The notes below the pieces were generated by a model that saw only the letters and a program-made list of their open reading frames with translations, made no database searches and had not been told where the DNA came from. Both the position numbers and the translations under genes were made by a program. Below, in pieces: positions 21,838-49,269 of a stretch of DNA of 64,000 nt. The DNA is from Hydractinia symbiolongicarpus (lineage: Eukaryota > Cnidaria > Hydrozoa > Anthoathecata > Hydractiniidae). The stretch lies in assembly GCF_029227915.1 (NCBI RefSeq), contig NC_079883.1, positions 22,134,001 through 22,198,000 of the forward strand, written 5' to 3'. Position 1 is the stretch's first letter, and each line of letters starts with the position of its first letter.

Positions 21838-24800
21838 TCAAGCCGTAAACATGCTTAGCAGGCCAGAAGATGGCGCGTTCTTTGGTAGTATTTTACGTAG
21901 AAGGTTTTTCAACAACTCCACAGACACATAACCCGAGGAAGAATGTTTGTAATACTTGCTGCAGTATTGTTCATATTCGTTTATCAATGTCATCAATCTA
22001 AAATGACAAAAAGAATGTAATTAAGAATTATATAGCTAATTTTTTATTAACTTGTTTAAGATATTGAGTACACCAGGCTGTTCAAAATTACAAACGTTCT
22101 CAAAGAATCATTTTGATCATTCTGTCAGCTCGCTTGAACTCAATTACTAGGCTAAGGCTAAACAAGATAATTCTTAGCGACAAATCAAATTACCGCAGCA
22201 ATGTAGGCTGAAAAGTTGTCCGCGCGAATGTAAAAAAACACTGACTTGTTCGCGCGAACGTAAGAGTGTTAAGGCGTATTAACAAGCACTGTCGTTCGCA
22301 ACTCATTCTAAACTCTTTAATTGTGTCTACGAACAAATTTTTTTGTACCTATTTGAATGATCACTTTTATTTAGCTGCGACAGATCATCCAAATTTTGTG
22401 TCTTATCTTTTGTTTGCAAGTTGAGAACACCATAACAAATTCTAAATAAATGTACGTCATTAAAATTGACTCTAGATAATAACACATGCGTAGGAGTAGC
22501 ATGCGTCATTTAGTACAAACATGCACAAACACATTGTAAAATATTAACAATAGAACAGGGCAGACAAACTCCTCCACATAAATTTTTTTACATTTTTACG
22601 TGTTTTTGGTACTCCTGCACATATTTTACTTTCAAACAAACTCCCACTTTCTACCACATAAGTAAGTAACGGGAAGTTTCATGCCTTGGGTATTCCATCC
22701 TAACAACTGGCTCTTTCTCCCCTGCGACTGTAACTATTATACATTACCGCCAAAGATATAGCATTGCTCTAACTTGCTTGCCTGACGCACAAGCCAGCGC
22801 ACGAGCGTAGTGACACACTGGTATTGAAACCAGGAAACAATCTCTTTGTAAAAGTCTGTCAGACTGGTGCCAAACATGACAATTACTGACAAAAAAAAGA
22901 AAAAAAAATATTGAAAGGCCTTTTTAATACGAAAATTATAGGCACATTTTCGAAAAATTCGATGGACTATCAAATTAAGGGGTTGTAAAAAACTATGTAG
23001 TTAAATATTCATGTACAACATGTGTTTTGTTGTATTTTATCGCGTGATTAGATCCGTACCTTGATAAGAAGAACAAAACATTCAGCAAAATAATGGATTC
23101 CTCGACAAAAAAGTTATTTAAAGATGATCCCAGTTTCATCTTCTGTATGTCAAGTTTTAAAACTTTGATGGTCTTGCAAATCTCCTAAAAAATGAATGAG
23201 TAGGAACAGTACACTTGAACAGACACAAGTTGGGATTGTTAATATACAACACGTCTGAGTTTCATATATTTTATTATTCTTTAACATTTTCAAACATCGC
23301 AGATACTTGTCTTGGACCTGGTAACAGCTGTTTACTGCCCATACCTTGAAGGTATGATATTTCACATATAAGGTACAAATTTCGCGATTTTGTGATTTTC
23401 AATAGGGGACTAAGAATGGATAATACGCAAAAATCGTTTCTGTGGCAAATTAAATACTGCCAAAAAGGTTTCTACATACGGAAAATAAGTGCCTGTGGAA
23501 TTTTGCACTTGCAAAAATTGATATTTTTATAGCAATTCACAAAACAGAAAATCATTTTTTTTGGACTTTATATCAAACAATTAATTTACTTTCCTTCAAC
23601 AGATATGTATAAATTTTAAGTCTAGTCCCCAAATGATATATTTCTAGCTGAAACTGAAACAAACAATGACAAAAGTCCATCACATACCTGAAGATTTTCC
23701 GTCGTTAAAGATGACGCATCAATTGAACAATACGCCAACATGTCGTCGAATAAAGAACGATCAGCAGTTGTCAATGGTAACGAATTTCCCATGGATACAA
23801 AATAATTACCAATTAAGTCATTATCGTCTTCGTATATTTGATAGTTAATGATATTTTTAATGTACGTCTCGTCCTAAATAAAAGAGGAAAAAAATCTTAA
23901 CTGCGAATCGATACGTGAACAACATTGCTCTCTAAAGGTATGCAGAATTTCCACCAGAGGAAGATAACAATCAGAGTGAAAATTACTATGCGTGTTATTT
24001 GTTTAAAAGTACTGCAAACCGTTACTTCGTGCTAACAAAGCACCAGATAATGAGGACTGGAATATTACCAAGCGGATCCGTGAAACACCGGTTACCGGCT
24101 TGTTTACTTAAATACACGCAGGAAAACATACATACCAATTCTTTCGGGGCGTTCCATCCCATGAATGACGTCATAACGATGGTTGGGAGAAAACTGCTCC
24201 AGCTACACAACTTTTTTGATGACGAAGAGAGTTTGGTAGATAAACCAGCAACATTATAATTGTTAAGTTTGTATGAAATTTCGTGCACACTGGACATGGC
24301 ATTCATTATGTTTGGAAATAACCTAAAAATAGAAAGTTTATAACAGTTAAGTTCTTCCACCTAAGAGAATTAAAAAATTTGTCGGTTAATTTTTAAGGTC
24401 TTTTGAGGACGTTTAGGTTTGCGTGTGCATAACAAGTTGGTCATACACACACACCACTGAGAGAGTGGGCTAAAATTATTGCACTTAAAAAATTAATATC
24501 TAAGGGAATTAATTTTCGCGAAAAATTACTTAAAAATAAAATTTAATTTCCGGGAGGACTAATTTTCGCGAATTTAACAAATCCTAATATTTCGCGAAAA
24601 TGCAATTTAATAACGCTTTGTTTCTCAGTTTTTACCGTTTTTGAAAGGTTTGAAACATAAAATAATGACGGGTAAAGTTGAAATTCATTTAAGAGTGCAA
24701 AAAAGGGGAAAAAAACTCTTTACTTCCAAAAACAAACATTTTTACAGCGAAAATTAATCCCCTTAAAATTTTTCGACCCACGAAAGTATCAACCCGCGAA

Positions 24801-27800
24801 AATTAGATAAGAAGCAGCATTGAAATAAAAAAAAAAACTGTTCTTAAAACTTGTGAGAAGAAATTTGTGTAAATTACTTATTTTATGTATTTTTTGAAAT
24901 TTTTACCCTTGTATTAACGCTTTAAAATAACATAAAAAATAAGCGATTAAGAAATCGCAAATTTCTATTCTTAAATTTTTTTACAAAACATTTCTGTCTT
25001 TTACTCTTTTATCTTTTCAAAAAAAACGAAATTGGCATACAGAAGAAATTTCACTCTCGCGAATTCATCTTGTTTCGTGAAACGCGAAAGCTTTTTTGCA
25101 ATAGCAGACAGCTGTCAAAAATTCTCATTTGCACGAAAAACATAGATGTAGTTTTGTTTGCAAATAAATAATTAAGTATACAACCAGGTTACCATAACAA
25201 CAACCAGGAAATAAAAAAACAGCAAATTACATATGCTTTATAAAAAAAACATATTGAGGTTTAGAAAGGGGAATTTTTTAAACATATCCTAAGAATATTT
25301 TCCAGCCTTGGTAAATCCTTCCAATGTGTATTTCTGTATTTAAGCGTATTTTAATTAGACACATACTTTTCTAATTCCTTATATAGAATAAAACTTTGAG
25401 TTGTCTTGTGCACCCTTAGTCATCTTTCTGATCTTCTAAAACGGAACATTTCATCTTATTCCATAAAGTAACGTTTAAGTTCCTGCAACAATCATAACGT
25501 AATCATGATCTAAATCTGATTGCGTTTTTTTGCATAAGCATGCCCCAACCCGAGTTTGGACTTGCTTGCTTGCTTCATTTGCTTTGTCTCCCATTTCATA
25601 TTTCAATTATGACAATTACTAACACAGGTATAGTACTACAAAACTAAAATGTCACTCACGACGTTCTGCGTATCTGATGACGAGCAGAGAATTTGTTCTA
25701 TTCCCCGTAACGAATTACCATCAAGAAAATTTGACTGCATATTAGTAGTCGACTGGATATTAGCAGACAGGAAGACGTGTAGGAGTAATGCATTACGCAT
25801 TCGACAATAAAAAAAGAGACGTGCGTAGGAGAGACGCGCTTTCTGATGAAATTTAAAAGTCGGAATAAACAAGACAAATTGAGACATAGAAAAACATAAC
25901 ATTTCATTTCAAATTGTGCCGCTGGGTTGTTCTATTCACAAAGCAGTGTCATTATAGGTTTATCACTTATACAAACAAATTTAAATGTTAACAGCCCTCG
26001 TTAAGATTAAATCGCTTGTCAAATTATATTAATGAAAACCAATTTTCTAAATCAGTTGAGCGAGATAAATTTTATTTGGAATGTTAAAGAAGCGAACTTA
26101 TTTTGTTGATAAAATAAATAAGGCTTTTTATTGTCTTTATACTTCCGACTAAAAGCTGCTTTTCACCATGGTTGCAAGCCTACGAGCAAAAAACCATGTG
26201 ACTTATAAAAGTGCTTTCAGAAGCGTATCTAATTAGTCATCTATTATGTAAGAAATAAAAGACATCGACTTATTGACTCATTATTATAAAGCAAGCGACA
26301 ATGCTTTAATTACTCGCTTCGATTTAAAGTATTACTGTACGAAAGCTGTCGACGTGTTCAAATCTAGAAAGATCAAGTTTAGAGTTCGGCAATAAAATTT
26401 TAAAAAGATTGCAAATGACAAAATCTCCAGTTGATTTTTATGTAACTTAAAAATTTAACATCTGTGAATATATGACGATCATATTAGTAACGCATTTTTT
26501 TTGAAAACACATGAAATGGAGTTTTTAAAAGCTATACGAGCGAATGATTACAAAAAAGTGGAAAAGAAATTAAAAAAAGGCTGGAATGTGAATCAACCGA
26601 TCGAAGAATACAACAGCAAAGATCTACTATGTGTAACTATACCCTTATGTGTGGCAGCAGCTCGCGGCTTTGCTGACATTGCAGAACTGTTAATGAGTTA
26701 TGGCGCAAATATACACGCCTGTAATACGGACTGGTCTTCACCTCTACACACGGCTACATACCATGGGCATTTAGATGTTATAAGACTCCTTATCGCTAGG
26801 CGAGTCAATGTGAATAATCAAGACCAACATGGCGATACAGCGTTGCATATTGCTGTTAAGAAGGCCAATTTTGAAGCTGTAGTACTTCTGTTGAGAACTA
26901 ACGCGGAAATAGAAATGAAAAATAATACCGGAGATACACCATATGATATCGCTATGTCTCAAAACTTTACTAGAATCGCACAAACTTTAACGCAAAGAAA
27001 AATGGAAATACAAAAACAGAAACAACTCGATAACCCCAAACCAATACCACCCAAACCGAAAAAACCACCACGGGTGGGAAAGGATCCAGAAGAGAGTGAA
27101 AAAGACAGACTTAAACGACAACTGCAAGAGTTGGAACTGAAGGAGGTCAACGAGTCTATCAAAACAAAAAATGAACAAATCTTGAAAGTCACCGACGAAA
27201 TGCGAGACTTTGAAGGAGAGGTCACGCAGGTTAAGGGAAAGATAAGCGCCTTAGATAAAAAACTGAAGCAGCTAAACGAAACTTTAATAGCCAAAGCAAC
27301 TTACAAGAAAACATTACAACAAGATTTAGAATCTCTTGAAAAAAAGAAAAACAAAACATTCGTTAAAGCATCAGCAGTAAATGAAGAAGCATTTGAATGT
27401 CCGATATGCTTCGTTTTGCCTCTACCACCCAAACAAGTGTACCAATGTACTAATGGTCACATTTATTGCAGCGACTGCAAAGAAAAACCGCGCATGAGCG
27501 TCTGTCCACAATGCCGTGCGCCAATCCCAAAAGACAATGCGATTAGGAATTTGATGTATGAAGAAATCATCGCGAATGTGTTTTCTTGAAATTTTAAAAA
27601 ATGACGAAACATTGATTGTAGAAATTATTTGTAAATTAAATATTAGAAAGATTAGATTGAAAAATAAGTTTGTATTAAGTTCTAGCGACAAGAGAATCCC
27701 AGCACGCACAGTTCACTTCTTTATAACTTCGTTTCAGCGAGAAATATCATTTTTAACGAAGTAGGTAACAATTCCTACTTTTGATATATGCAAAATATTG

Positions 27801-30800
27801 TGGTTGCGTTCAGAAAAGTTCTACCATCAAGCTATTTTTTATGTTAGTCAAAAGTTACTGTAATAATAACATACCTGTTCAAATTGTTATTTTCATAACA
27901 AACAATACATTGTAATCTAAAAAAAGAATCAAAATACACCAATAACAATAAAACCATTAAAAATATATCGCGACAATATTACAATAATAATCACGTGCAA
28001 TACTCCAGAACAATCAAAAATCAGGAATAGTATCAATGCATTCCTTTCGCTGCCGACTTAATTAACATTACAATTATTTGTAAGACTCGATATATATTAC
28101 AAACTTATAAAAACCAAGATAATACAATCGGGAATTGCGTTTATTTCTGGTGAAGATTATTTTTAATTTTTGGTGAGCCTGTTACACTGGAATGTGTGCA
28201 TTTCTTTCGTTTCCCAACTTAACTATCATTATGAAGAACTCTCTTGATAAACTTTAAATGACATTCAAGGAAACAATCTTCAGGTGACTTTTTAGTAAAT
28301 TTCGTACACGCGAATAGGTAAAATGTGCCCAAGTAAAAATCCTGCAATTGCCACGAAAAGTGACAATGTGAAAATCCTCTAAGCTATGTTCTACAGCTTT
28401 CTAATTCGACGGGACGGGCGCTTACTTCAAGAGGTGCTAATAAAATAACTAGACTGCTTGAAAAGCAACCAAACTGACCCTAAGTTATCTACCATTTCAA
28501 TGCGTTCTTCTAACCGATCCGCCTAAAAAATCAAAAAATCAAATAATAAATAGAAAATTAAAATCAAAATACCTTCGCAATGTGAACTTAGCCTTAAAGC
28601 GTTTCGAATAACTATGTCAACAGTAATTTTTGCGGCGTGTAACAGCATGATATCCAGAAAATTATAAACTCAATTCTACATCAAAAAAATTCTGGCAAGA
28701 AAGTACAGCGAACATCTCCTGTCTACAGCGGACGCTTTTCTTAGGCACGAATAAAATAGCGGTCAAACTCTCATAGCAAAACCTCTACGCATAGCTGATA
28801 CTTAGTAGCAGAAGTAACTTAAAGGTTTTAATTTTCAGTTTTCCATACCTGACCAGGACTATTAACTTACAAACTCAAAGGGTTTTTTTAAGTCTGTTTT
28901 ACCTCTTTGAATGAAAGATCGCATATTTAGAACATGTCGTCTTAGGATCTTTCTCTAACATCCCTTACCTGAGACAAATTAACGGTAAACGAGAAACTAT
29001 TTAGTAATGATGTCAGGTGATCGAGATGCATATCAATTTCATTGACTGTCAGCTGCAGATGATAGTTTCTAGCTATGCAATACTGATGAAGTTGTTGAAT
29101 GAGTTTAGAACTGCTTGCATGGCGAAGATCAACATGCAGGAAGCTAAACAAAGCAGACATTATGTTAAAAAAAACTGAGAAAAGAAAATGTGAAACCTCG
29201 GAAAGTTAAGTTATTTTTAATCCGTTCAAATATATTTACGTTTATTGGCTTGAATTTATAAAGCCTTAGGTTGATTTTCAATAATGCATACTGAGCAACA
29301 GTCTCCGTTACGAATTCATTAAACACACATGTTGTGCAAAAAATTTTGCCAAAGGGTTTTTCTCGGTCTACAACTGTTGCAGGATCTGTACAACATTTGT
29401 TGTGCAACATTTTGTGTTTGTTGTAAAACATGTGTTTTTCAAACAAGTTGTAACGGTGACTGTTATGCAACCGTTGTGCAACAAAATTTCGGTTATTGGA
29501 AACCAAGCTTAAGGGTTCATACTGTATATGTTCATGCAATAAAACCCCAAACCAGAAGCACAACGATAGTAACATAAGATATACACGTAGTATAATAAAT
29601 AAATAAAAATGATGAAAATTTAAGAGGATTGGTCCAAAAATCTAAAATTTCAAGATTATTTTGACAAATGAAAAATCAAATTTTAGACTTCAAGAATCCT
29701 AGCTAGTAAATATGTGAAGATAACAAACTACGAGTTTCTACTCGCGCGAACACAATGTAAATCACAAATCTTGATGTCATGTAACTTTTAACTTCAACCT
29801 CAAAATGCATAAAAAATCAAACACCAGCTATACTTATGATGACTTACTTAGACGATGGAAACAAATCTATGTAGTTATTTAACTTTTCAATATTCAGTTG
29901 AAATATCCCATTATTTCCATGACTAAATAAAAAGAATAACAACATTTTACACGATTTGGAAGGTAAAGTAAGTATCTAAACCTAGATATTCTACGAGTAA
30001 CTTACAAAACAGTTCTGTTTTTCTAAATAACCAACATTGAAACACAAAAAAAAGCAAGTCTAAGGCTGAAAACTTGATGAATACGTTTTAGCAGATACTG
30101 ATATGAAAAACAAAGTTACTTAAAGTAAATTCAACTTGTGACAGTTTCAAAATTTCAGACTAGACCTGTTTTTTTTACGCAATACACACTCCCTAAGGCT
30201 TTCTCGGATAGGCTAAAAAACTTCATCTCTCTAGCTGTTCAGTTTAAGGATTGAAATATTCGTATTACAATATTTCCTACATTGAATATTTCATTTTCTT
30301 TCTTTTTTTTGACATTAAAATCATTCATTTTCGTCACAACAATAAACTGCTTCTATACCATAGTTGAACAAAAACAAAAAGGTTATTCACTCTCCCTAGC
30401 AACGTTGCTTGTTGTTAGGCATTGCAAGTAAATAAAAATTGTCTTGTCTACCTGATGAGGTTTGAATGTTCATCTATCACAATATAAGGAACAACGAGAA
30501 TAAATCTTTTCTGGCAATATGCTTGCAATGTGAAAAATTCTCTAAAAACAAGTAAAATAATTCAATATAAGAAAAATGAATATTTTTTAAATAGAATTTG
30601 ATCCTAGTCAATGTTTTGGATGAAACTTAAAATAATTTTCCTCTACAGTCAGAAAAATAAAGTTTTGAACTATCAAGGTTTTGAATGCAATCAGAACAAG
30701 AAAATGAATACACTAGTAGGAGATGCTTAAATTTATTTTAAGACAGGAACATATGTGTTGTTACCTTAAGTTGAAACATCCTGTATTTTTTTGTTCACCA

Positions 30801-33800
30801 ATATTTTGTATGTTCAGTTGAATCTAAAAATAATGCATAAACTGAGCTACTGCATTTTTTTGTCTCACCAAGAGTAACATTAATATCACTAAGAAGCTAC
30901 AACCTTTTAGGGAAACCTAGAACAAATATTAGAGAAAATTGTCTGCTCTACTTGGAACTTTTGTACTATTTTACTTTTTTGTTGTGAAAAACATATAAAT
31001 ATTGAATATATTTTTCTTAGTCGATCAATTTCCTTTGATGTCAGTTACCTGTATCTAAAAAAGTGTGTTGTAAGCAAGGGACACCCTTTTTCAGGATAAT
31101 AAATAAAAGGTCGACAAGAATTTAGCAGCACCCACTTTTTATATGTTCCCTTTTTTAAGTACATTTTTGGGTTCAGTCTGGATGTTTCCTAAATTTGAAG
31201 GACTTTTTTGTAGAAATCTATAAGGCCTGACCCCTATTTTCCACTCTAAATTGGTTTTCAGCCGAAGGCTTGTCATATCAATTTTAGAAAATTTAACATG
31301 ACTTGTGGATTTTTTTGTATGTTTGAGAAGGGCATATTATGCAACTCTTCTGATTGTCTTTTATGGATGATGTTATCAACAAATTATGTTTTATACCCAT
31401 TTACAATAACTTTACATTATGCAAGGAGATGCTGCACAAAACTCATCAATTTTTGTACCATGGTTACGCTATTAATAAACATAACGCAAGCATACCTGGT
31501 TAATTTTAAATAAGGCAAGAATATCTACAGTTTCACAGAAGATGTCCTAAAACAGAAGTTAAAAATATCATTAGATGAGAAAGATTTTAAACAAAAAACG
31601 GCATTGTATACTGGAAAGCTAAAAAGTAGCAAAATACTCAATTGTCCTGAAGATTATACAAGTTGGGAATAAAAGCTTTCAAGGGAACCTTAAAAAGTAA
31701 TGAAGCACGAAAATAAACTAATTTCAGTTCTTAGATAACAGTTCTTAAAATTTTTTTAGGAAACAGATAGTTTTTATGACAAGATTACTCAATATCTAGT
31801 TTGCTACCTGGTTGTCCATTAACATTGATAATGAGATGTCTAAATTTTTTGAAAATGAAAAATAGAAACCCTTTTTTTGTTTTAATCTCCCTTTTTATTT
31901 TTTTGGGTAAAACATAACACATCATTAAAATCCATATCATCTTCACTTTTGATTTAACTCAATCCTTGTTGTAGCTACATTATATATTGTACATGTAACA
32001 AAATTATTCCAGACGTAGTTAAACTAAACATTCCCTCTTTTCATATAGCTTAGAGACAAAATATAATAACAACAATTTAACACGTTGTACAAAAAAAAAC
32101 GGCCATCGATGATCACACCAACGTTAATTTTGGGTAACATGTTGCAGTAAAGCACAAGGTTTTTTTTTTAATTCGGGTCATATGACTGATTTAAAAGAAG
32201 CAAGGAGTTTGATAACTAACAAAAAATTTATTTTTCTTTGTTATTCAATTTTAAGGGCTTGTTTAATGTTACAACGTCACAACCAGAGATGCCTGTTGCA
32301 TTGTCCTAATTTCTAGCCTGCTGCACAAGCGAGTATACCGTCAGTAGAAAGCTCCATACAAGTAACAAAAATACTAAGATGTCTGTTACAATGGGGATTA
32401 AACTAGCAATCTTTAATAACAAATGATATGTTAACTACTAGACCATTGCCATTGATATGTATCGAGGCAAGATGTTATATATATTCATTGAAGCAGTATA
32501 CACAAGGGTCTGAATGTAAATTTCACACACCGACAAAGATGAAACCTACCAAATGGGGAATGTCATTGCACTGGAAGTCAAGAATAACAGATCTGTGAGG
32601 ATGAGATGGCCAATCAGAAATCTAGAACAAAAGTTGCTGAAAAAAATGATGTAAATGGTAAAATGCAAAAGTAAAATGCAATGTAAATAATTAAACAGTG
32701 CAATAATGGTACTTATTACCTAAATGGTATATAAAAAGCCCAGTTAACATGAAAACTCAGATGATTTGATTCATCTACAGCTTATTTAAACAGGGCTCTG
32801 TATAGATCCATACTAACCGGTATGGGAACCATTATTAAAATGGTACCACAAAACTTAAACAAGTAAAAAACAGATCGTAAGTTCGTTTTGTAATTTTGAC
32901 CTCAGGCTTTGCATTTCACAGTACAACACCAACACCAGTTAGTATCAGTGATTAAGAATGAAAAATAAAAAAAATATACAAACTTGTAATAATGGGACAG
33001 CTTTTCCTCTGAATAACCTTAAACACTGCACGAACGTTGATATTCCACGAAACATTGAAACAGTACAGGAAGATAAAATCACCACCTAAAATAAAAAATC
33101 ACAGAGTGCGAAGAAGCCAAAAAAATGCAAGTAAAGCAAAATAAAGAAGTGGTACAGTTTTAAGAACGTAGCAATGAGTAGAAAAATGTTGACATACCAT
33201 TAAATGCTTTTTAATAAGAATTAAATTTTAAAGCAATAAAGAAAATGTCATAGAAGAGAAATGACAATATTTTTCCCACCTTATGTGTATTCACTTGTAT
33301 TTTATACTCTTCTTTGTGTCTAAATGTATTTTCACTTATTATACATTGAAGATGAGTTTCCTTGATGTAATTCGAAGTGCCTATAAAAAAACAGAAATTA
33401 TTTAAATTTAGCAGATACTTAAACAGGGATCATAAGAATTTAAGGGAGAAAAATTCCATGACAATCCCAGGTATCAAATCACAATTTTGGAAAAGAAAAC
33501 GTTTTCTGCATTTTCATACAGTTTGGTCCCATATTAATAAAGTCCTATAAATTTTTTTATTTTCGGCTAGTTTTCTGTTCACACAAATGCAAGGACATAA
33601 ACAGCAAACTCCTATTCTGAACCTAAACACGGGCCTATTATTAAGTAGTGTTATATGCAAAAAGAAAATAACAATTTTCAGGATAGAAAAATCCAATTAG
33701 TTTTTGCAGAATTTCTCTTAGGTTTCTCTGAAATCCCAGACTGCTAAGAGTCCTGTTAAAAAAAGACAAAGTTGATTGAGGTTTCACATAAAAAAGTTTA

Positions 33801-36800
33801 AAGTCACAGAAACATAAAAATATAAAGAATCGTGTTCAATATCATTTTTTACTTTTGAATCCACTTGAAAACGCCCGAAATCTCTAAAATTTCTATTCAA
33901 CTTAACTATGGTCTTATAGGTGGGGATTGACTGCACAATAGGGATAAGCCAGGCTTTACTTACTATTTCCATTATAAATATACGATAAAGTTATTCCAAT
34001 ACTCTGAAACATTTTTGTAAACAAATTTCCAACATCTTTTATATCGTTTACATGTCCTGAAAATTAGAAAATTTGTTGATCAAACCAATGATATTATTAA
34101 CCTTCTCACAATAAATAAGTATGATAAATAATCATTGAAGTACCTCGTGAAGATACTATTTCAACCGTGAGTTCACTAGGAGGGACAAAGAATAATCCTT
34201 CAAATTGTTTCATCCTTTGCGGAGGAGGGCATAAATATTTTAGGGTGGGGTCCACTGTCACCATTTTTGGTAAAACTGATGGTTGATTCAATAAATGGGT
34301 GGATGAAGTTGACATTGAATTGCGAGACTTGTGTTTGACCTCTGTGATGACAGTGCTTTGCTCTAAATGGAAGAAATAAGTTTAAAAATATACTCATCTT
34401 TAGCAACCGTAAATGTTCACATCATGTGTGTTTTACTCACACTATCCAGTTCTCTTTCACCAAAAAAAACATTAAATACAAATTTATTTATAACCAAATA
34501 GCTATTTAGAATCGTATCAGATAAATACATTTTTGTGATCTTCTGCTTTAAAAATTGTGTATTGGTCCTGATCCACCTTCCTATGTATTTTATAAAAATA
34601 TAAACATAATTTTTCTCATTTAAATTTCTTACATACATAAATTGATGTAAATTATAGAAACAATTTTTATTGTACTTCTTAATGATAATTACATTATAAC
34701 GATAAAAAAAGATGATAAAAAAAATAATAGGCATTGTAATTTTTGACAAACCATTGTTAAAAAAGTTATAAATGCACCGTTAAAACAAGACATGCATGTT
34801 CTGAACTTGTCCAAGTTCACGGCAGAGTGTTAGCCATTTAATATTGTATGCCAATTTGGAAAAATAGTATGCCCTTACAAGAATAGTCAAAAAATACCAA
34901 TTGTCCAATTTTCTTTGCCCAAGATTGTAGAGCCGAAAACAACAAAATTTTACTGTCAGTGTTTTGTTATCACTGTACAAATTTCTGTTGAAACAGAGAA
35001 TTACGGACTTATAACACTTAGGTGTTTAAGGTTTTAAAAAGTGATCTCGTTGATGTGTAGTGCCTTTGAGAATGTTTGTACTGATTTGTGGTATAGTTTT
35101 GCTTAAGAGTTTAAGCTAAAACAAGAACACAATTAATTTTCATCAAACTGTTGAAATGTTATACAACTTATACATGAAGGAAGTCGACACATCGCTATAG
35201 ATTATTAGATTTTGTGATCAAAGTTCTATTTTGAAAATTTTAATTTTTTCATAAAGCAATATGCAGCTGTGTTTCATTAACAAAAGATGTAACAAATGTC
35301 TATGGATAAATAATGACAGTGGTGGTAGGAAATTAAATATTAGCGTTATACCAGGTATAAAAATACCTGAAACTTCTTCTGTGTGTACATCCTCAGTAAC
35401 CTCTCCTTCCGTGTTTACTGTGTCTTGCTCAGCATATTGTTCTAACAATGTCTTTAATTCTGGATCTTTAATAGCAAGATAAATTGGAGACTTTCCTTCA
35501 AGATTACTACAATAACAAGAAATCAACATGTTGTGAGAAATGCCATGGTGAATTTGGCTTGCTTATGCCAACTGTGTATCAAAGCCTGCTTGCTGACAGG
35601 CAATAAGTAAACATTATATATTGCAAACTTATTAAAAAAGACTAGTTGTTAAACCAGTGGAAATATCTACGGGTCCCCACATCTTTAAATCACACACTAT
35701 TTCGTATCCCCATTGCATGTCGCTTTTCTTGAAGACAGAAAAACAAAATACATTAGTATAGAGACGCTTTATATGTCATTACTACTCGTAACAATACCTA
35801 CATAGATGTGAACATATTTGTGCCCCTTACAGTTGGTAGTTTACTAACCCTTTAACAGGCTTGGTATTTGTGTCTGCACCATTTTTTAACAGCTCTTCTA
35901 CTATATCTTTATCACCACGTTGAATTCCATCATGCAAAGGAACAACACCGTCTGCATTCATTCCATTAACATCACCACCCCTTTCTACAAAACAAACAAA
36001 AATACAAAATTTAAACAATGCAGCAAGGATGAGCAAACACTAAGTGTCAAAGAAATAATCTCACCTTCTGTAATGTTATATTTAAATTGAATCCCAGGCC
36101 ATGAAGTATGAAATGCCATTTATAGAAGGCTTATTTTAAATAATAAAGAATTTTTGGCTTTAATTCACCTTAAGAAAGAATTAAACTTAAAATAAGAACA
36201 AGCAAAGAAAGATGCTTGTTTTGTTTTTAAAGCTTTAAACTTTAAAACATAAAAAGAGATCAGAGCTGTGCTCAACACAATAATTAATCCATTCAGTATC
36301 CAAAAAATTTCCAAATGTGCAATGTATCCATTGATTTCAATAACAAAAAAATGCTTAAGTATTATGTTACCACATATTTAAAAAAAAATATATCCCATAA
36401 TGTGTTATCACTATTGTAAATCCAAATCTGATACCAATGCAAATTATATTTTGTATTATCTATAAATCTGATTGTAACTTTAAAACAATGCAGTGTAATG
36501 GAAGTAATTATTTTAAACATTGGAATTATAGCAATGACATCACTATAGTGTATATACTACATAAAGCATTACTAATATAGAGAAACCAAACTATCTGTAA
36601 TCTCAAACAGCCAAAATTCAATTCAACCAAATTATTAAAACCATTGCTTACTATATTTGTGTGTTTACAGAAGACAATTTAACTTACAACTAGAAAAATC
36701 AATTCTTGTTGTAATGTCAAAGTTTAATAGTTAGCTGAAGGTTCTGTCAGGCATATGTTAGTACACAGGAAGAATAAGATGTCATCTTATAGCTTTTAAA

Positions 36801-39800
36801 TCATGCCCGGAAATGTGTCAGCAAAAAATTGTTGACAGTTAGAACCCTGATTCTCATTGATTAATTGCCAACAGAAAGGTTGGTTGTGTTAAAAGTAAAC
36901 AAAACAAGTTCCTGGTAACCTACAAAGTTTCAAAAGAACTCTCATCTACAAACATAAGTTCCCCACTTAGTTCTTATCAGTGACTGCTCTTTCACACACT
37001 CAGATTTCAGAAAATAAAAATAATCAGATTTTATTAATATTATTATTATTTACCCAGGATAACCTCTTCAGTTCCTAATGATACTGTTATCAATTAGGGT
37101 CCTGCGAAGTGAATAGTAGAAAGAATTCACACTTTTATAGTCTCTGGCATGAATCGGCCAAGGTTTGAACTCAAGACCTTCCGCAATGGGGGGAAACTCT
37201 TAACCACAAAGTCGCCAGCCAGTTTAAAGTTTAAAAATAGATAGAATCTAAATAACTTATTTCTTTTCTACTTCTCTGTTCAGAAAAACGTTTGATTCAT
37301 CAAAAGAGATTAAGATTTGACCCAGAAAGGAAATTTCATCACCCCATAATTCAGGCTGCACCTCAAGAGATGGTGCAACTTTTTGGTTTCTCTGGAAAAA
37401 AAGTAGGTCCCTTATCTTTAGGAGTTACCTGTTAAACAAAAAAATCACATTTCCATAATTAATACATTTTCTGTGCCAAATTCGAACCAAAACGTGCAGG
37501 GTATAGGAATTCACATTTTAACATTTTTTAGGTTTTTAAAGAAATCTTTTATTAAAAATTGGCTATTTAACTAAATTATGTTACATTTATAAAAATGAAA
37601 ATTCACTCTTAACGTACAGACTTTATCTGATTTTTCTGACATCCCAGCATATCTACAGACAGATATATTCTTGACTACAAACCCTGCATAAATTCATAAT
37701 AGATATATTGTAGTAATAGGTAATTTTATAAAATCTAACATTAAGAGGTTGATACTTAATTTTACTCAAAACAAAAGTTGAACTGTCATTTACAAACAGA
37801 ATTAAATTAAAGGAAAATTGCACATATTTCATAAATAAGAGCCTCTATTTGGGGAAAATTTTGCACTTTGGACCTTTGTTTTTGCACTTTCTCTTTGTTA
37901 GGAGGAAATTTATCCTGACTTTTTGCGCCCTTTAAATAAAGGAATGACTAGATCATTGATTCCTGGCTAATTATGATATTTACCTATGATGAGTTTGACA
38001 GTTGGCAAATCTGCAAAGCTAACTGCCCAATGCAAAACAGTGTTGCCTGATGCTGCACCATCACTGGAATTAACATCAATCCCAGCAGATAGAAGTTGTT
38101 CAACACGAAATGTCCTAAAAATGTTTTTACTTAAAAATAATCAGCGGTTAAGGAGAGTTTAAAAACTTTGCTGCCAATTTATAAGAACTTAAACTTAAAA
38201 GTGCAAAGCAATGGCTTCACTAATCTTGTCTGTGACGTCAATATTTTTTAACAGTAAAGTTTGGTATATTACAGAACAATTTTATAGATGATGTTTTATA
38301 GACTTTGTTAAAGAAAAATATGAAAAATAAAATTCACTTAAAAAATATCACAGACAGGCGCACCAAAGTTTCGTATAATTATATAGATAATTTTTAAACA
38401 ATATTTTATTTAAACTGAAGAGTCATTGTGATTTCAACGGCAGACATTTAAAAGAGTACTTGGATCAAACAAACCAGCAATACAAACAACTTTTCCCATA
38501 CAACTGCATACCTTGATTGCGACACTGCTTGCATCAACTCTCCAACATAAGCATGTTTCATTGACTCGGATGCACAATAATTGTAAGGATTAAGTTTCGC
38601 CTTGTTAACAATTGTGCAATTTGCTCCTGCTGAAAGTAACGTGCGGGCAATATCAGCAGAATCAATCTAAATTTACAAAAAGAGAGAATTAATGTCTCCA
38701 GAAATAAAATAATGAACTTTTTCAGAGATAAAACGATATAGATTTTGTCAAAAACAATGCAAAATTTGAACTCAAGTTAAACTCAAACCAACTTGAATTG
38801 AAAATTTTTAATTTGCTTTATAGTCTATTTCTCAGGACTGCTTGCATAAATATACATCACATCAGACAGTTTAAATTAAATTGACTAGCGCGTTGGAGAA
38901 ACATATTTTAATTCTTTTTATGTATAATTGTCATGTTAATCTAGAAGTAAATGATACTTGTTCTGGCACCCTTCTAAAGTTGCATAGCGAAAAAGGTTTT
39001 ACAGAAAACAAGGCTTGTACAGCTACCATATAAAATAAATATTCATCAGCATCAACATCGTCTGCTTAAAAACTGTTGTTTATGCTAGCATTGGTTAGAC
39101 AGCTTACAATAAACTTCTCGAAATCTAATCTAGACCATGTTATAGCTCTAAATATTGTTAATATGTGACATGTTTTGCGATTTGGAATACTATAGCATAT
39201 TATTAAAGCCTATTAAAGCCTTAGTTAAACATTTCTGATTGTGCCATAAAGATTTTTATTCTGTCATATGTACTTTTTTATATAAAAAATACAAACGAGA
39301 TAACAAAAATTATATGCTGTACATACATACATATTCCAGGACAAGCTTGTTGTCTGTATTTATATAGTTCAATTTTTCTACGCTGTAGTCTAATTTTTCT
39401 ACACTATATTTATGCCATATTTCGTAAAACAAAAATGAATTTTATTAAACACTGCAATATTTAATTAAGAAACAAGAATCACTGTATTTTATTAAGAAAC
39501 GATTAAAAAAGTAGAAAGAATTAAAAAAAATTTACAAAGTTTTCACAGACTTTTTATTTTTCTATTAAGAAATGACAGAAAATCTTTCTTACAAGCTAAA
39601 AAATCTCTGTGTTCTCTTAAAAAGGATTAAAAAACTGTCTTACAAGGTTTTTACACTAACATATTTTGTTATAAAACCTTTAAAATACTTTTTTACCAAG
39701 TTAATGATTTTTATAAACATTGCTAAGTTTTAAGAAACGATTAAAAAAACCTTTTAAAGTTTAAACAACACCGTTTTTCATTTTAAAACCATCATAAACA

Positions 39801-40629
39801 ACCCTAATATGGCGTAATAAGTATTTTCTATGTTGCTGCAAAAAATATCTAAGGCGTAGAAATTAAATACTACTATGTAGCACTTAAACAATTTAACAAA
39901 AAAACACTACATTGGCTTCATATTAAAGGTGTAATGGAATAATTTGATCAGCATGAAATTACGGCATATGTACTAAATATAGGAGTAACCCAAATTGCAA
40001 AACATATAACATATCATAATATAAAAGACCGCCATTTTTATTCTTGCTGCTGTCAGTGATTACTTATTATTTTTTGAGGATGTCTACAATATGGGTATTA
40101 TTTGTGCAAATTAAATTTACAGGTAACACAACTCACAGGGAAGGGGAAAAAAATCTTGGATTAATGCATATAAAAAAAAATCAGCAATAAAACATACCCT
40201 AGTAGCATAATGTAGGAGTGTTCCTGAGTCAGTATCTCTATGATTTAGCAAAAGAGAAAGTAAATCTAAGTATTCTTCACTGTCATATTTATCAACCAAT
40301 TCTTTTTTGCTGCGTTCTTCACCATCGCTATCATATTCATCTTCCTCTCGTACTGTAACAACGAATGAGACAAAAACTTAAGACATAAAGTTGAGCTCTG
40401 GTGGATGAAATATAAATTCAAAAAAAGTCTATAAATACTTTAATCAAATTTTCATGAATTTTTTCTTACATGATTGTGCAGCAGAGAGAATTTGTCTGAC
40501 AATATCTGTCCTCTTAGCTAATATTGCAGTCTTCAAGTCAGAAAATGCATCTAAAATTACAGGGTCATCACAAATGTACTCCTCTTGTTCCTCAGCAGCT
40601 TCTATCTTTTCTTCAGTTTTTTCAGTCAT
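21838..40629 (-). CDS. Ankyrin-repeat protein fused to a degenerate GH20 (HEXD-like) domain
   Basis: Exons in order: 40629-40470, 40352-40198, 38666-38512, 38114-37984, 35984-35849, 35506-35367, 34362-34144, 34056-33984, 33380-33280, 33085-32984, 32621-32550, 31839-31808, 30539-30452, 29922-29848, 29143-28969, 28522-28493, 25752-25660, 24322-24136, 23873-23688, 23184-23060, 21997-21838; about 865 residues. Phase breaks at 33984/33380, 32550/31839 and 25660/24322 mean a few small exons are missed. The acidic N-terminus is followed by about five ankyrin repeats (NTVLHWAVSFADLPTVKLII, GVVPLHDGIQRGDKDIVEEL). Then PPPQRMKQFEGLFF resembles the GH20b domain, EEYKIQV and ISDWPSHPHRSVILDF the entry of the GH20 barrel, and GSVWLLFKQSS human HEXD. 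Where active GH20 enzymes read HIGGDE or HIGCDE, this reads FLHVDLRHA, so the catalytic Asp-Glu pair is gone. Likely a non-enzymatic or altered sugar-binding protein; no signal peptide, so intracellular. Confidence 0.7.
24509..24806. mobile_element. tttcgcg inverted-repeat element
   Basis: Starts ttaattttcgcg and ends cgcgaaaattag about 300 bases away, with further tttcgcg motifs inside. A similar element lies at 52803-53132, so this is a dispersed non-coding family. It lies in an intron of the ankyrin/GH20-like gene. Confidence 0.65.
26516..27589 (+). CDS. Intronless ankyrin / coiled-coil / RING protein nested in an intron
   Basis: A single 357-residue frame, MEFLKAIRANDYKKV to IIANVFS. The first true ATG is 26516; the frame can be read five codons further up only from a TTG. 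Residues about 1-165 are ankyrin repeats (SSPLHTATYHGHLDVIRLLI, DTALHIAVKKANFEAVVLLL). About 178-196 are a Pro/Lys linker (KPIPPKPKKPPR), and 200-285 a charged coiled coil. Residues 295-333 are a C3HC4 RING: CPIC, YQCTNGHIYCSDC, SVCPQC, with all eight zinc ligands. It should be an E3 ubiquitin ligase whose ankyrin part picks the substrate; that role is inferred from the domains. The gene lies wholly inside the minus-strand intron 28493-25752 of the ankyrin/GH20-like gene, antisense to it. Lack of introns suggests a retrocopy origin or an intron-poor family. I do not recognise a specific vertebrate orthologue. Confidence 0.88.
   Translation: MEFLKAIRANDYKKVEKKLKKGWNVNQPIEEYNSKDLLCVTIPLCVAAARGFADIAELLMSYGANIHACNTDWSSPLHTATYHGHLDVIRLLIARRVNVNNQDQHGDTALHIAVKKANFEAVVLLLRTNAEIEMKNNTGDTPYDIAMSQNFTRIAQTLTQRKMEIQKQKQLDNPKPIPPKPKKPPRVGKDPEESEKDRLKRQLQELELKEVNESIKTKNEQILKVTDEMRDFEGEVTQVKGKISALDKKLKQLNETLIAKATYKKTLQQDLESLEKKKNKTFVKASAVNEEAFECPICFVLPLPPKQVYQCTNGHIYCSDCKEKPRMSVCPQCRAPIPKDNAIRNLMYEEIIANVFS
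32390..32460 (-). mobile_element. Possible tRNA-derived SINE relic
   Basis: On the minus strand: GGTCTAGTAGTTAACA resembles a box A, and 40 bases on TAGTTTAATCCCC resembles a decayed box B. Confidence 0.35.
37080..37220 (-). mobile_element. tRNA-derived SINE
   Basis: Read on the minus strand it begins GGCTGGCGACTTTGTGGTTAAG (box A), and carries GAGTTCAAACC (box B) about 35 bases later, followed by a non-tRNA body to near 37080. This is the typical head of a tRNA-derived SINE. Sits in an intron of the ankyrin/GH20-like gene. Confidence 0.65.
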
Positions 40630-42740
40630 TTTAACTTTTTTTCTAAAAAATAAGCAACAATAACATAATACAACATCCTAATAATAACACATTTTATAAC
40701 ATCTGATGACAGCCACAAGATGGGACAAAAAATAACTTTCGAGGAAAAGAAATAACAACAACCATGTAAATATTAACTTTTTAATGTAACATCATAAAAA
40801 AGGCAGTTTGTGTATGTAATTATAATTTTATTCATATATGTAATACATAAAAATGATTTAAATAATTGAATTTCACAACATAACATACAGGACTTTAGCA
40901 TACTGTCGTTGGTTAAAAAAGAAGGTTACTAACTAACTATATATATAACTATATAGTTTGTTTTCTTTTGCTTTTCTTCACATTTTTTTAGCACTTTGAA
41001 TATGAATAGTCATAATAAAGTCTTATGCAAATTTTAGTTGTTATATATAATTATTATCATTACACTGATTGCAGTGAAAGATTTATCAAAATCATAAGCC
41101 TAAGACTGGATAACAAAATTTGTAAAAAAGTAAGTAGTCAAAGCAACTTTGCTTGTTTTTTTTCAATCTTCCTGTGACATTCCATTATTGCAACATTGTC
41201 CACAAGAAGTGCCAAAATATTAAAGTTGATAAAAAGGCCTGCATACATAATTTAACTTGAACTTATAGCAAAACACAGTGATGTAAATGTTGGTTATAAA
41301 ATGCTTTCTCTACAAGGTTTCAAGTTTAAAATTATAATGCAGCAAATTTATCGAACTTACTTGGAGTAGGTGAACTTACCGAAGTTCAAGATTTTTATAA
41401 ATTTTCCAAAATGAAACACCTTTTCTACATGATGCATATTTTGAAAGAAACAGGCATAAATTTTCCAAAATGAAACACCTTTCCTACATGATGCATGTTT
41501 TGGAAGAAACAGGTATAAATTTTCCAAAATGAAACACCTTTCCTACATGATGCATATTTTGGAAGAAACAGGTGTAAATTTTGAAAATAAAAAACTTCCC
41601 ATTTTCCTAAGCGTACATTAAGCCCTATTTAATGTAAACAAGGGTCTGGCAACAAAAAACTTTTTAAACACTTCTTAGTTGATTTTTTTGGCGAAGGGGA
41701 GGGGGTGAACAGTTGCGCGTAGAACATTTTTTTGTGATGAAAATGTATCATGTGACAAACAATGTTAACAAACACAGATTTTTACTTAGTACACAAGCCT
41801 TTGGCTTACACCCAAACCATTTTTGTTCATTTTTCAGCAAATAACTTTGGACATGTTAAGTCTGCAAAACATGATGGAAATTATTTTTCACCAACCCTTA
41901 ACAGTATATTTTCCATGTTTTCTGGAAATTTATTTTTTTAAAGAGAAAACAAATTAAAGGGCAAGGGAGTCACACACAAAGTATTATTTATCTACACAGT
42001 TCTTGACAGCCAGAGAAACTGTATTTACTGCGATTCATTCAGAAACAGGGTCTTCGGTAGACACTTCATATTGTCGGACAATGAATTTGGTTTAATTCTG
42101 TATACTACAATACTCCTTGTCGAACAACTTCATCCATAACAAATAAGACATTTGGCATACCATAATCCTCACCAATAAATTTATTTCCTGGCTTATTTGA
42201 TCCAAAAGAAAAAAAAGTATTGAAGAAGATTGTTTTATTTAATTCTTAAAAATATTAAAATGAATAATAAGTTAAAAATTAACAGAAATTCAAATCTTTC
42301 ACTTTAAAACTTATTTGTTTTGCTACTACGTATCGCTTACAGGGCGCTATTATGACAAATACTGCAATTGCAAGATAATATGATTATATAGTGGTTTTCT
42401 AAATGCTTGGATATATAAGTCCTAAAAGTGTTGAAATAAACAAAGAACTTTAGCTAAATTTCATCATTTTCCTTACCTTTTCCTGTCCAAGGTCCTGTTC
42501 CTTTGCAAAGGGCTCACAAAAGACATGATCACACATATATTTTGTAGAATGACCTGACTTTGCAGAATATGCTTGTGGCCTGCTTTGCAATATGGAAGAG
42601 TGACCAGGCCACCATTAATTATATGTTCGAGTTCTCCAACCAATTCAATTAGGTTATAAAAAACTCACATTGATAAGTCGAAAAAACTCCTACAAAGAAT
42701 CAAAGTGATGCTCAGTTACTTATGACAAACAGTTACTTAT
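40630..42740. other. Upstream region of ankyrin/GH20-like gene
   Basis: No exon seen. Presumably holds the promoter of the minus-strand gene starting at 40629. A 59-bp tandem repeat lies at 41396-41582. Confidence 0.55.
41396..41582. repeat. 59-bp tandem repeat, three copies
   Basis: Three copies of a unit holding ttttccaaaatgaaacacct, ctacatgatgcat and gaagaaacagg, at a spacing of 59-60 bases. Copies differ at a few positions only, so the expansion is recent. Confidence 0.9.
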
Positions 42741-43760
42741 GACAAACATGCCCCTTTCAAAACACATAGATTTTCTGGCCGTGTTGAGGCATGGGTCACT
42801 GATGAATTAATAATAGCCATCAAAGAAAGAGACTTCTTGAAACGGAAAGCATCAAAAACAAAATCCATCATAGACTGGGAAGCTTTCAAACAAAAAAGGA
42901 ACCAGGTAATAGGTCTCAAAAATCGACTCAAAAACGAGTACTATAATGACGTTTTGCAGGACTTTCAAAAACGGCCAAAACAACTTTGGAAAACCCTAAA
43001 AAAACTGGTTCCTGATAAGTCAGGCAATACTACCTCGATAAAACGAGTAGTCCAAAACGATGGTACAGAAACTTCTCACCCAAAAGAAATTTCCAACACA
43101 TTCAATTCATTTTTTGTCAGTGTTGGTGCAAAACTAGCCTCTAAATTTTCTTCTGACACTACTAATGTTAATCCACCTGTTAGCAGACACGATTTTCGGT
43201 GGGCTCGTATTGAGACCAAAAGTGTCGAAAAAATAATTAGATCACTAAAACTTAATAAAGCTACAGGCTTGGACGGAATTGGTTCACGACTGCTAAAAGC
43301 AGGTTCGTCAGTTTTAAGTATTTATTTATCAAGTCTTTTCAACAAATCTTTATTTACTGGTTATGTACCTAAATGTTGGAAGACTAAAAGGGTCTCGCCT
43401 ATTTTTAAAAGTGGCAATAAAACAGATCCTACTAATTATCGGCCTATCTCCATTTTGCCAATTCCTATGAAAATTTTTGAAAAGTTAGTGCATGAGCAAA
43501 TGTCTCATTTTATTTCTGAGCACAACTTCCTGAATGACAGACAGTCCGGATTTCGAAAACTCTTTTCCACAGAAACTGCAGTAGTCGATGTCTCTGATTT
43601 TATTCTTACTGAGCTCGACCAACATAACTTTGTTTGTGCTGTGCTCATTGACCTTAAAAAAGCTTTTGACACTGTTGATCATAAAATTTTGTTAAAAAAA
43701 CTATGGTGTTTTGGCATCAGAGATGCTGCCTTTGACTGGTTCTGTAAACAAAGATTCTAG
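42741..43760 (+). mobile_element. LINE reverse-transcriptase fragment (jockey/CR1/L2-like)
   Basis: An open frame from DKHAPFKTHRF onward matches the region just after the endonuclease of LINE ORF2 (EAWVTDELIIAIKERDF). It runs through the first reverse-transcriptase motifs: LNKATGLDGI, FKSGNKTDPTNYRPISILP, QSGFR and, with the first catalytic Asp, LIDLKKAFDTVDHKILL. It stops after FDWFCKQRF at 43758, before the YxDD motif, so the rest of the polymerase is missing and the element is dead. It has no endonuclease upstream. The sequence after the stop (ending near cgaataaaac at 43830) may be the 3' UTR joined by an internal deletion. Confidence 0.85.
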
Positions 43761-46616: not shown

Positions 46617-48519
46617 TCAATCAGATCTTCTTGAATTTTTGATCACCTCCATTGCTACTTGAACTTTTATAAAATCTTCATCTTTTCCGGAAGCTTTGTC
46701 TGGGTGGTATTTTCGTGACAGTTGGTGATACGCTTGATTGATCTTATCATTTGAGTCTGTTGGTTTCACTCCAAGATAATTATAAGCCTCTTCAAGCGCT
46801 GCGGATTTAGGAATTCCGAATATCCATTGTGTCAAGCGATCTGAGATTGTTTCTCCAAGGTAATGCCCAAATATAGAACCAAATATTCCTCCTTTAGTAA
46901 AAAAAACATACTTAAGTAAGTGCGCAGTATTTTCTTTTGGATGTATTTTTGCAACCTTATCCTCAGGGTATTTTGCTTTGTTTATGGAATTCAATAGCGG
47001 CCACTTCGTGATAACGGTTAAGAGTCTGTAAGACCCTGGGGACGAGATTGATATTTTCCACATTAATTTCAAATGCAAAACTATACATGAGAAGTTTCCA
47101 CGAGGATGCACATTATATTATAAATTGACCAACGCAATGTATTTATATTGGTTTGGCACCTTCTGCAAAGAAAATCATTAACTTACACTGGCAATGTACG
47201 GAATAGGCCTGTAGAAGTGTCATTGGCCAACTATAATCTTTTTTATTTTTTCATTAGTTTTGTCGAGTTTATTAACCAGGGAGATTTTAAGAAAATATAC
47301 TTTTTAATCAAAAATGGAAAGAAGTGCTAGTGAGCTTGGTACTACTCTTTTATCACATGCTCGTCCGTTAACAAAGAGGTGTATCGGTTTAGTCTGTGTT
47401 GTTGTTTCCGTAAAAGAAAATTCATATTCTAGGTTGTTAGTTTCTTTCCCTTTACAAGGTTTTCTCCTAATGAGTTAAGCCAAAACGAAAGAAAATAAAA
47501 ACAGGACGAAAAAACCCTCTACTTTACGCACAAAAAGTCTCATGAATTTATCCCGCCCGTCTCAGCAATAATTCAGTGATAGACCTTGCTATAATCTGAT
47601 AAACAAGACATTTCCTGCAGATTTTCAGGATCAATATATTATAGAGATTTTATCAGAGTTAAAAACGCAGACCGAGCACAATTTTTTATACCACAAGGAA
47701 ATCAGAATAGTCAAGGTAAAATAAAATTACACTGGATCGCAAACGAATTTTCTGCGGTCAGAATACTAAAGAATAGAATAAAGCAATTGATTTATCAGCA
47801 CACCTACCTGCAAACACATAGGCTGGCCCGCCACCTACATAACCTACCAACGCGGCCGCTCCTAACCCACCACCAGCACCACCCGTTAAACCTGAAGCAG
47901 TATCTATAATATTCTTCACGCATCTCACACCGGTTATCTCCCCTTTCCACCAACGTCTGATGTTAATAACTGCGTCATAGGCCAAATAAACTGACGAAAG
48001 AGCAACCATAATCGGAGTCCCTCCATGCTTTGTCACCAACCCAGTTAATTCATCAGCTACCAACACTAAGTTTTTCGAATGTAAGCTCAAACAAACTTCT
48101 TTTATCATAGGTAGCAACTCTTTCTGGCCTTCCACGCCGATAATTTCCCAAATTTTTGCCAGTTCTGGAAAGGATTTGCTAATTTGTAATTTTGCAACTG
48201 AAAAATGATAATTTTGGCCATCATGGCTCGGTGAACCGTTTACGTCTAAAAGATTTTGATATATTTCGGACATAGTTTTACGAAATTGAGGATCTCGCTT
48301 TGCTTCCTTGGTATCAGCCGCTAAATTTGATGCATACATTTTAAAGGCATCTTCAGAAGACGTTGCCATGTTCAGGGTCTTCCATACAGGAGATTCGCCG
48401 CCTTTATATTCTTTCTCTTCCTGGTCAAGATACCATAACGTTCTTGAAAAATCTTCCGGGTTGTGCTTAAAAAATTTAAAGATAAGTTTTCGGATATCAT
48501 CTTTCGAATTTTCTCCAGT
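46617..48519 (-). CDS. Glycine-zipper and J-domain protein, last two exons
   Basis: Exons 48519-47808 and 46891-46617 join in frame, giving at least 328 residues; the frame is open at the 48519 acceptor, so a 5' exon lies upstream. The first ~190 residues are soluble and helical (TGENSKDDIRKLIFKFF onward). Then comes a hydrophobic glycine-rich stretch, GLTGGAGGGLGAAALVGYVG and FAGGIFGSIFGHYLGE, which resembles a glycine zipper or a membrane hairpin and runs across the splice joint. The C-terminal 70 residues are a J domain, AYNYLGVKPTDSNDKINQAY with the HPD motif in SRKYHPDK. J domains stimulate Hsp70; the glycine-rich part suggests a membrane-associated co-chaperone, which is inference. The order, J domain at the extreme C-terminus, is unlike the usual DNAJA/B/C layouts I know, and I recognise no named orthologue. 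Confidence 0.75.
47111..47807. other. Intron of J-domain gene
   Basis: Lies in the 46892-47807 intron. No exon seen. A solitary end motif of the ctcg-cccaggg family (gaccctggggacgag) occurs at about 47031. Confidence 0.5.
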
Positions 48520-48731
48520 CTAAAATTATAAAAAATACGATTTTATAGAACAAACTACATCAGACATATGTCTTTAAAAGGCCAAAACTTTAGAACATGC
48601 TAAGAACATCATTTAGGGCTTTATTAATACTAAAAACTACTGAATTATTTCTTCTAAATGAGCTTCTAAATGCTTGGGTAAGGAGGGGGGGGGTCAGGGT
48701 GATTTGTCCCCCCCTCTTTAATTTCTAAAGT

Positions 48732-49269
<538 letters not shown>

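Follow-up and report, generated by a model that had tools for sequence, protein, structure and literature searches.

Can a glycosidase barrel that has probably lost its catalytic residues be kept in an animal cell as part of an ankyrin protein? The question is raised by a 64-kilobase stretch of the Hydractinia symbiolongicarpus genome (the window, that is, the whole of the DNA analysed here), in which a spliced assembly gives a 23-exon gene on the minus strand (40629..21838) encoding a 916-residue protein. Its parts follow each other as an acidic N-terminus, ankyrin repeats, a Glyco_hydro_20b (GH20b) lobe, a barrel of the GH20 type and a helical tail. We regard the product as probably, not certainly, an intracellular pseudo-hexosaminidase adaptor of cytosolic location. 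On this view one protein partner would be bound by the ankyrin repeats and another by the unit derived from GH20, which comprises the lobe, the barrel and the helical tail. That unit, a putative former hexosaminidase, would no longer hydrolyse sugar in Hydractinia and would persist as a folded binding platform.

Gene model and GH20 homology

All 22 introns are of the GT-AG type, with consistent phases, and the frame is open throughout. The assembly was built before it was compared with the NCBI model of the locus, isoform X2 of LOC130656447 (P0001), an "uncharacterized" H. symbiolongicarpus protein of 734 residues. From residue 201 onward 716 residues are identical, which is everything past the first exon of X2 itself (36119-36065). 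Exons 1-4, absent from X2, find support in P0003, a EukProt protein whose alignment begins at its start Met and has 40% identity over residues 1-87. A sequence-only reading of this DNA had placed the gene at 28969-34362, an extent that proves too small. Its central proposal of an ankyrin fusion to a GH20-type domain stands: PPPQRMKQFEGLFF, ISDWPSHPHRSVILDF, RFILVVPYIVID and FLHVDLRHA are all exonic, lying within X2, and the pieces run on from the ankyrin repeats in one spliced frame. The HEXD-like GSVWLLFKQSS that it had included is intron, not protein; the exon 28522-28479 stops before "gtcagt", and X2 reads there ..VDNLG|LQCIVCYENNN..

Among Pfam models, the ankyrin repeats exceed the cut-off (Ank_2, E 4.7e-20), and so does Glyco_hydro_20b (PF02838) at residues 336-468 (E 6.5e-8; 33.8 bits against a cut-off of 26.1), as the GH20b-like segment of the earlier reading would predict. 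The same lobe is matched in models from the scyphozoan Rhopilema (E 1.2e-6 and 4.5e-6). Neither the GH20 catalytic model PF00728 nor the GH84 model PF07555 is listed at E<=10 for Hydractinia or Rhopilema, both negatives being limited by the HMMER filters, which discard most matches above E ~0.1. Because PF00728 is not listed, recognition of the barrel comes from a PDB-profile search, from profile-profile comparison and from the fold. The single Hydractinia sequence matched GH20 enzymes among PDB sequences (best E 2e-5), as did a two-species profile (1.7e-7); GH84 rows in the latter search reached E 0.0054 over profile positions 107-169 only, where the lobe finishes and strand 1 lies. Comparison by hhalign with seven bacterial GH20 proteins gave E 4.7e-9 and 96% probability, the alignment stopping at strand 3. 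By sequence, the best matches are to hexosaminidases, bacterial and lysosomal, that carry a GH20b lobe. A (beta/alpha)8 barrel of the GH20 type is present in the protein. For the tail, predicted to be helical in the structure model, a profile found no match among PDB sequences below E 0.83 (three rows, phosphoenolpyruvate synthase) and hence no convincing relative. Weak matches to bHLH_IRO3, CENP-M and PIN_12 (Pfam) and to MzaA and FliJ (NCBIfam) were taken as noise, as was Ank_KRIT1 (Pfam), which is under its cut-off.

Comparison of the predicted structure with known folds upholds the GH20-type barrel claimed from the sequence and leaves two families level, with Z of 23.6 for GH84 O-GlcNAcases and 23.4 for GH20; the D313A entry 1m03 of a Streptomyces GH20 enzyme is among the matches. 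In the model, FLHVD (X2 residues 399-403) forms the fourth of the main barrel strands. C-terminal barrel pieces of bacteria were tried as alignment rows and then excluded because MAFFT misplaced all seven, and the seven N-terminal pieces were kept. An earlier model, made from three alignment rows (mean predicted local distance difference test, pLDDT, of 42), was too weak alone; Foldseek with it placed GH20 on top, with a query-normalised template modelling (TM) score of only 0.14-0.20 among the 50 matches listed.

The catalytic site

In GH20 enzymes the Asp at the end of strand 4 polarises the substrate and the adjoining Glu protonates, whereas GH84 O-GlcNAcases use an Asp-Asp pair; GH20 pockets are lined by several Trp. 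At the inferred Asp-Glu place Hydractinia has Arg-His (R587-H588) and no DE pair, the register being set by motif and strand order. A missed exon might have supplied the pair; the assembly includes exon 13 (IQLNIQNIGEQKNTGCFNL) and the six exons after 28479, none of which the sequence-only reading mentions, and the strand-4 place still has no DE pair. The strand-1 Arg and strand-2 Asp columns hold R and D in nine of the ten alignment rows, the exception being Hydractinia, with N and G; at the strand-3 PGH it has DEH. Rhopilema has R, D and ADV at these places and FLSISLDDL (SISLDDLD) at strand 4, that is, Asp-Asp where GH20 has Asp-Glu. Trp is absent between residues 468 and 708 of Hydractinia and between 279 and 682 of Rhopilema P0002.

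Loss of the Asp-Glu pair, as previously proposed, thus appears to hold for Hydractinia on the strand-4 register adopted here. The Asp-Asp of Rhopilema weakens the notion of an enzyme that is dead across the family. Catalysis by the Hydractinia protein, as predicted from sequence and model, is very unlikely, and would need a pocket unlike that of any GH20 or GH84 enzyme known to us.

The Rhopilema relative and the pattern of conservation

A protein search with the GH20 part returned, among 47 candidates, the query itself, Rhopilema P0002 and P0003; the other such searches returned only the query (among the 7995 candidates with most shared words that were scored, and among 53 candidates). Of 849 aligned positions P0003 shares 848 with P0002, and it was therefore taken as Rhopilema too. 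The Rhopilema models carry the same ankyrin-GH20 fusion, and we infer that they are orthologues of the Hydractinia protein.

Conservation between the two species is concentrated in the ankyrin repeats (52% identity), the GH20b lobe (38%) with the early barrel (37% over strands 1-3), and one tail motif (IYEDDNDxIGN, residues 727-760, 59%). The linker has 34% and the tail as a whole 35%, and strand 4 onward, with 19%, is the lowest of the segments measured. In bacterial GH20 proteins, of which three of the seven loci were compared, two pairs share 37-38% of residues in GH20b, 58-61% over strands 1-3 and 45-46% in the rest of the barrel; for the third pair these values are 28%, 48% and 38%. Because the GH20b identity equals that of two of the bacterial pairs but the barrel identity is lower, the catalytic half seems, from these sequences, to have lost the constraint shown by enzymes, with the ankyrin repeats and one tail motif kept.

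Weighing the alternatives

The suggestion of the sequence-only reading that the dead barrel is a glycan or O-linked N-acetylglucosamine (O-GlcNAc) reader, binding a GlcNAc-type sugar while the ankyrin repeats relay the signal, deserves consideration, but we think it unlikely. Pseudoglycosidases turned glycan-binding proteins are known (PMC7828330), the fold is equally close to GH84 O-GlcNAcases and to GH20, and O-GlcNAc would be an obvious ligand for a protein inside the cell. However, both substrate-binding columns, the strand-1 Arg and the strand-2 Asp, are replaced in Hydractinia, the two Trp-free stretches are unlike the Trp-lined pockets of GH20, and among the segments measured identity is lowest from strand 4 on. 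The strand-4 Asp-Asp of Rhopilema, together with its retained Arg and strand-2 Asp, might instead mark an unusual glycosidase that is still active, perhaps GH84-like, Hydractinia then being a secondary loss. This is quite improbable, given that the Rhopilema protein has ADV in place of PGH and no Trp in the stretch given above, that neither catalytic model is listed for it, and that the pocket is not where conservation concentrates. That annotation joined two separate genes, or that the gene is decaying, is very improbable: isoform X2 does begin at an alternative exon ahead of exon 5, without the first four exons, but it still has the ankyrin residues of exons 5-6 before GH20b, and the fusion recurs in Rhopilema, with P0003 aligned from its start Met; the GT-AG introns and the open frame tell the same way. 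Finally, an old intracellular family of hydrozoans and scyphozoans, pairing hexosaminidase and ankyrin repeats, could have become a sensor of O-GlcNAc or free GlcNAc, with graded decay of the pocket from a GH84-like Asp-Asp in Rhopilema to its loss in Hydractinia. We hold this to be a rather speculative reading; if true, it would provide a natural enzyme-to-reader series.

Several observations weigh against the pseudo-hexosaminidase adaptor. The structure model is of moderate confidence only (mean pLDDT 57.5, predicted TM score 0.47): blocks in X2 residues 141-450 range over 62-86 except at 211-220 (49) and 331-340 (47), those in 451-500 over 50-59, and the input alignment held seven GH20 rows as far as strand 3. 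Applied to the part past strand 3, hhalign stopped at that strand after 28 columns, with no statistical support beyond. In one MAFFT alignment the bacterial HIGGDE falls there opposite the Hydractinia stretch around NYHL, not opposite FLHVDLR, which contradicts the register adopted here; this alternative was set aside because it ignores the strand order of the model and a shared PS..(F/Y)(L/I)H pattern, though the sequence did not settle the matter. Low identity in the barrel could partly reflect misalignment, and only one other species was found among the candidates scored. The His of PGH, lost in Rhopilema, is kept in Hydractinia; Rhopilema in turn retains the Arg, the strand-2 Asp and Asp-Asp at strand 4, and judging from these residues its protein could conceivably have some activity. 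As to location, the lack of a hydrophobic N-terminus in the 916-residue protein speaks against entry into the secretory pathway, which lysosomal hexosaminidases take. Hydrophobic windows (in Hydractinia residues 821-839, mean 1.98; in P0003 residues 701-719, mean 1.88) are at places that do not correspond, and would be compatible with a membrane association.

Comparison with known proteins

The closest known arrangement is that of GH20b-bearing GH20 enzymes (Paenibacillus TS12 3gh4, Bt4394 7dup, human HEXA/HEXB), in which, as in Hydractinia, the GH20b lobe precedes a (beta/alpha)8 barrel. In contrast to them, the Hydractinia protein has Arg-His at the inferred Asp-Glu place and no listed match to PF00728; it lacks the hydrophobic N-terminus, and has ankyrin repeats in front and a helical tail of its own. 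GH84 O-GlcNAcases (BT_4395, CpGH84D) have a lobe, a barrel and a helical part in common with it, and, to our knowledge, no ankyrin repeats; their Asp-Asp pair is present in Rhopilema but absent in Hydractinia, the sequence match is confined to the lobe end and strand 1, and PF07555 is not listed. HEXD has, as far as we know, neither a GH20b lobe nor ankyrin repeats, whereas the Hydractinia protein differs from HEXD / GH20C in having both. HEXD membership as argued in the sequence-only reading was rejected, since its motif is intronic; nor do the presence of the lobe and the best matches, to GH20b-bearing hexosaminidases, support a resemblance to HEXD.

Inactive GH18 chitinase-like proteins such as YKL-39 retain a glycosidase barrel after catalysis was lost, as proposed here for Hydractinia. 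YKL-40 is another such protein, and these proteins are secreted. They belong to another family, and glycan binding, known for them, would be hypothetical for the Hydractinia protein.

No paper or named protein with the ankyrin-GH20 pairing turned up in the searches, in agreement with the earlier reading, and the NCBI entry is unnamed; the literature covered included ten of 240 papers matched in one listing, none of those ten with Glyco_hydro_20b, and the main texts of two Hydractinia papers. The component parts are of known kinds; their combination, common to a hydrozoan and a scyphozoan, is new to us. The protein is a candidate for an animal pseudoenzyme of GH20 descent and provides a practical way to ask whether, after catalysis is lost, such a barrel turns into a sugar reader or into a mere scaffold. 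CRISPR/Cas9 knock-in is reported in Hydractinia (PMC6122657).

Exons and neighbouring features

All exons are on the minus strand. Exon 1 (40470..40629), with the start codon and the acidic N-terminus (residues 1-53), was placed by assembly and alignment with the P0003 start. The ankyrin part begins in exon 2 (40198..40352, residues 54-105; assembly), continues through exons 3 (38512..38666) and 4 (37984..38114; both assembly and Pfam) and exon 5 (35849..35984), where identity with X2 starts, and ends in exon 6 (35367..35506; both assembly and NCBI model). The alternative first exon of X2, MAFHTSWPGIQFKYNITE, lies at 36065..36119 (NCBI model). The linker and the start of the GH20b lobe are in exon 7 (34144..34362, PPPQRMKQFEGLFF); the lobe continues in exons 8 (33964..34056) and 9 (33280..33380) and ends in exon 10 (32984..33085), all by assembly and Pfam. 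Barrel strand 1 (HRSVILDF) is in exon 11 (32550..32621; assembly, hhalign and predicted structure), helix 1 in exon 12 (31496..31546; assembly and predicted structure), strand 2 (IQLNIQN, within IQLNIQNIGEQKNTGCFNL) in exon 13 (30765..30823; assembly and NCBI model), and strand 3 (FILVVPYIVIDEHSN) in exon 14 (30452..30541; assembly, hhalign and predicted structure). Exon 15 (29848..29922; assembly) precedes exon 16 (28969..29143; assembly, predicted structure and alignment columns), with strand 4 (FLHVD), R587-H588 at the inferred Asp-Glu place and then model strands 5 and 6. Exon 17 (28479..28522), where the intron containing GSVWLLFKQSS starts, and exon 18 (27875..27916) come from the assembly and the NCBI model; the part aligned to GH20 barrels ends in exon 19 (24136..24322; assembly, NCBI model and fold comparison), which extends beyond it. 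The tail comprises exon 20 (23688..23873), with the kept motif IYEDDNDxIGN, and exon 22 (22349..22441; both assembly and Rhopilema alignment), exon 21 (23060..23184; predicted helical; assembly and predicted structure) and exon 23 (21838..21997), with the stop (assembly and NCBI model).

The intron that separates exon 18 from exon 19 (27874-24323) contains, on the opposite strand, an ankyrin-RING gene in a single open frame at 26516-27589 (+; Ank_2 9.4e-23, Sina_RING 1.2e-7), an arrangement of two nested ankyrin genes. About 2 kb upstream of the gene start is a reverse-transcriptase fragment (42726-43757, +; RVT_1 9.1e-16), probably a retroelement remnant. Elsewhere in the window, an open frame at 9676-10620 (+) has double-stranded RNA-binding, G-patch and R3H domains, a set known from NKRF-type proteins. 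A C3HC4 RING-finger open frame at 14622-14930 (-; zf-C3HC4_3, 3.5e-12) is probably an exon of a further downstream minus-strand gene, and a short open frame at 46620-47117 (-) has a DnaJ domain (5.6e-13) close to its end. A long simple repeat at 48718-49288 is open on both strands, reading TDRQ on the minus and CLSV on the plus strand, and a degenerate repeat array at 552-1169 (+) is open in several frames (VTRVHTTRVH...).

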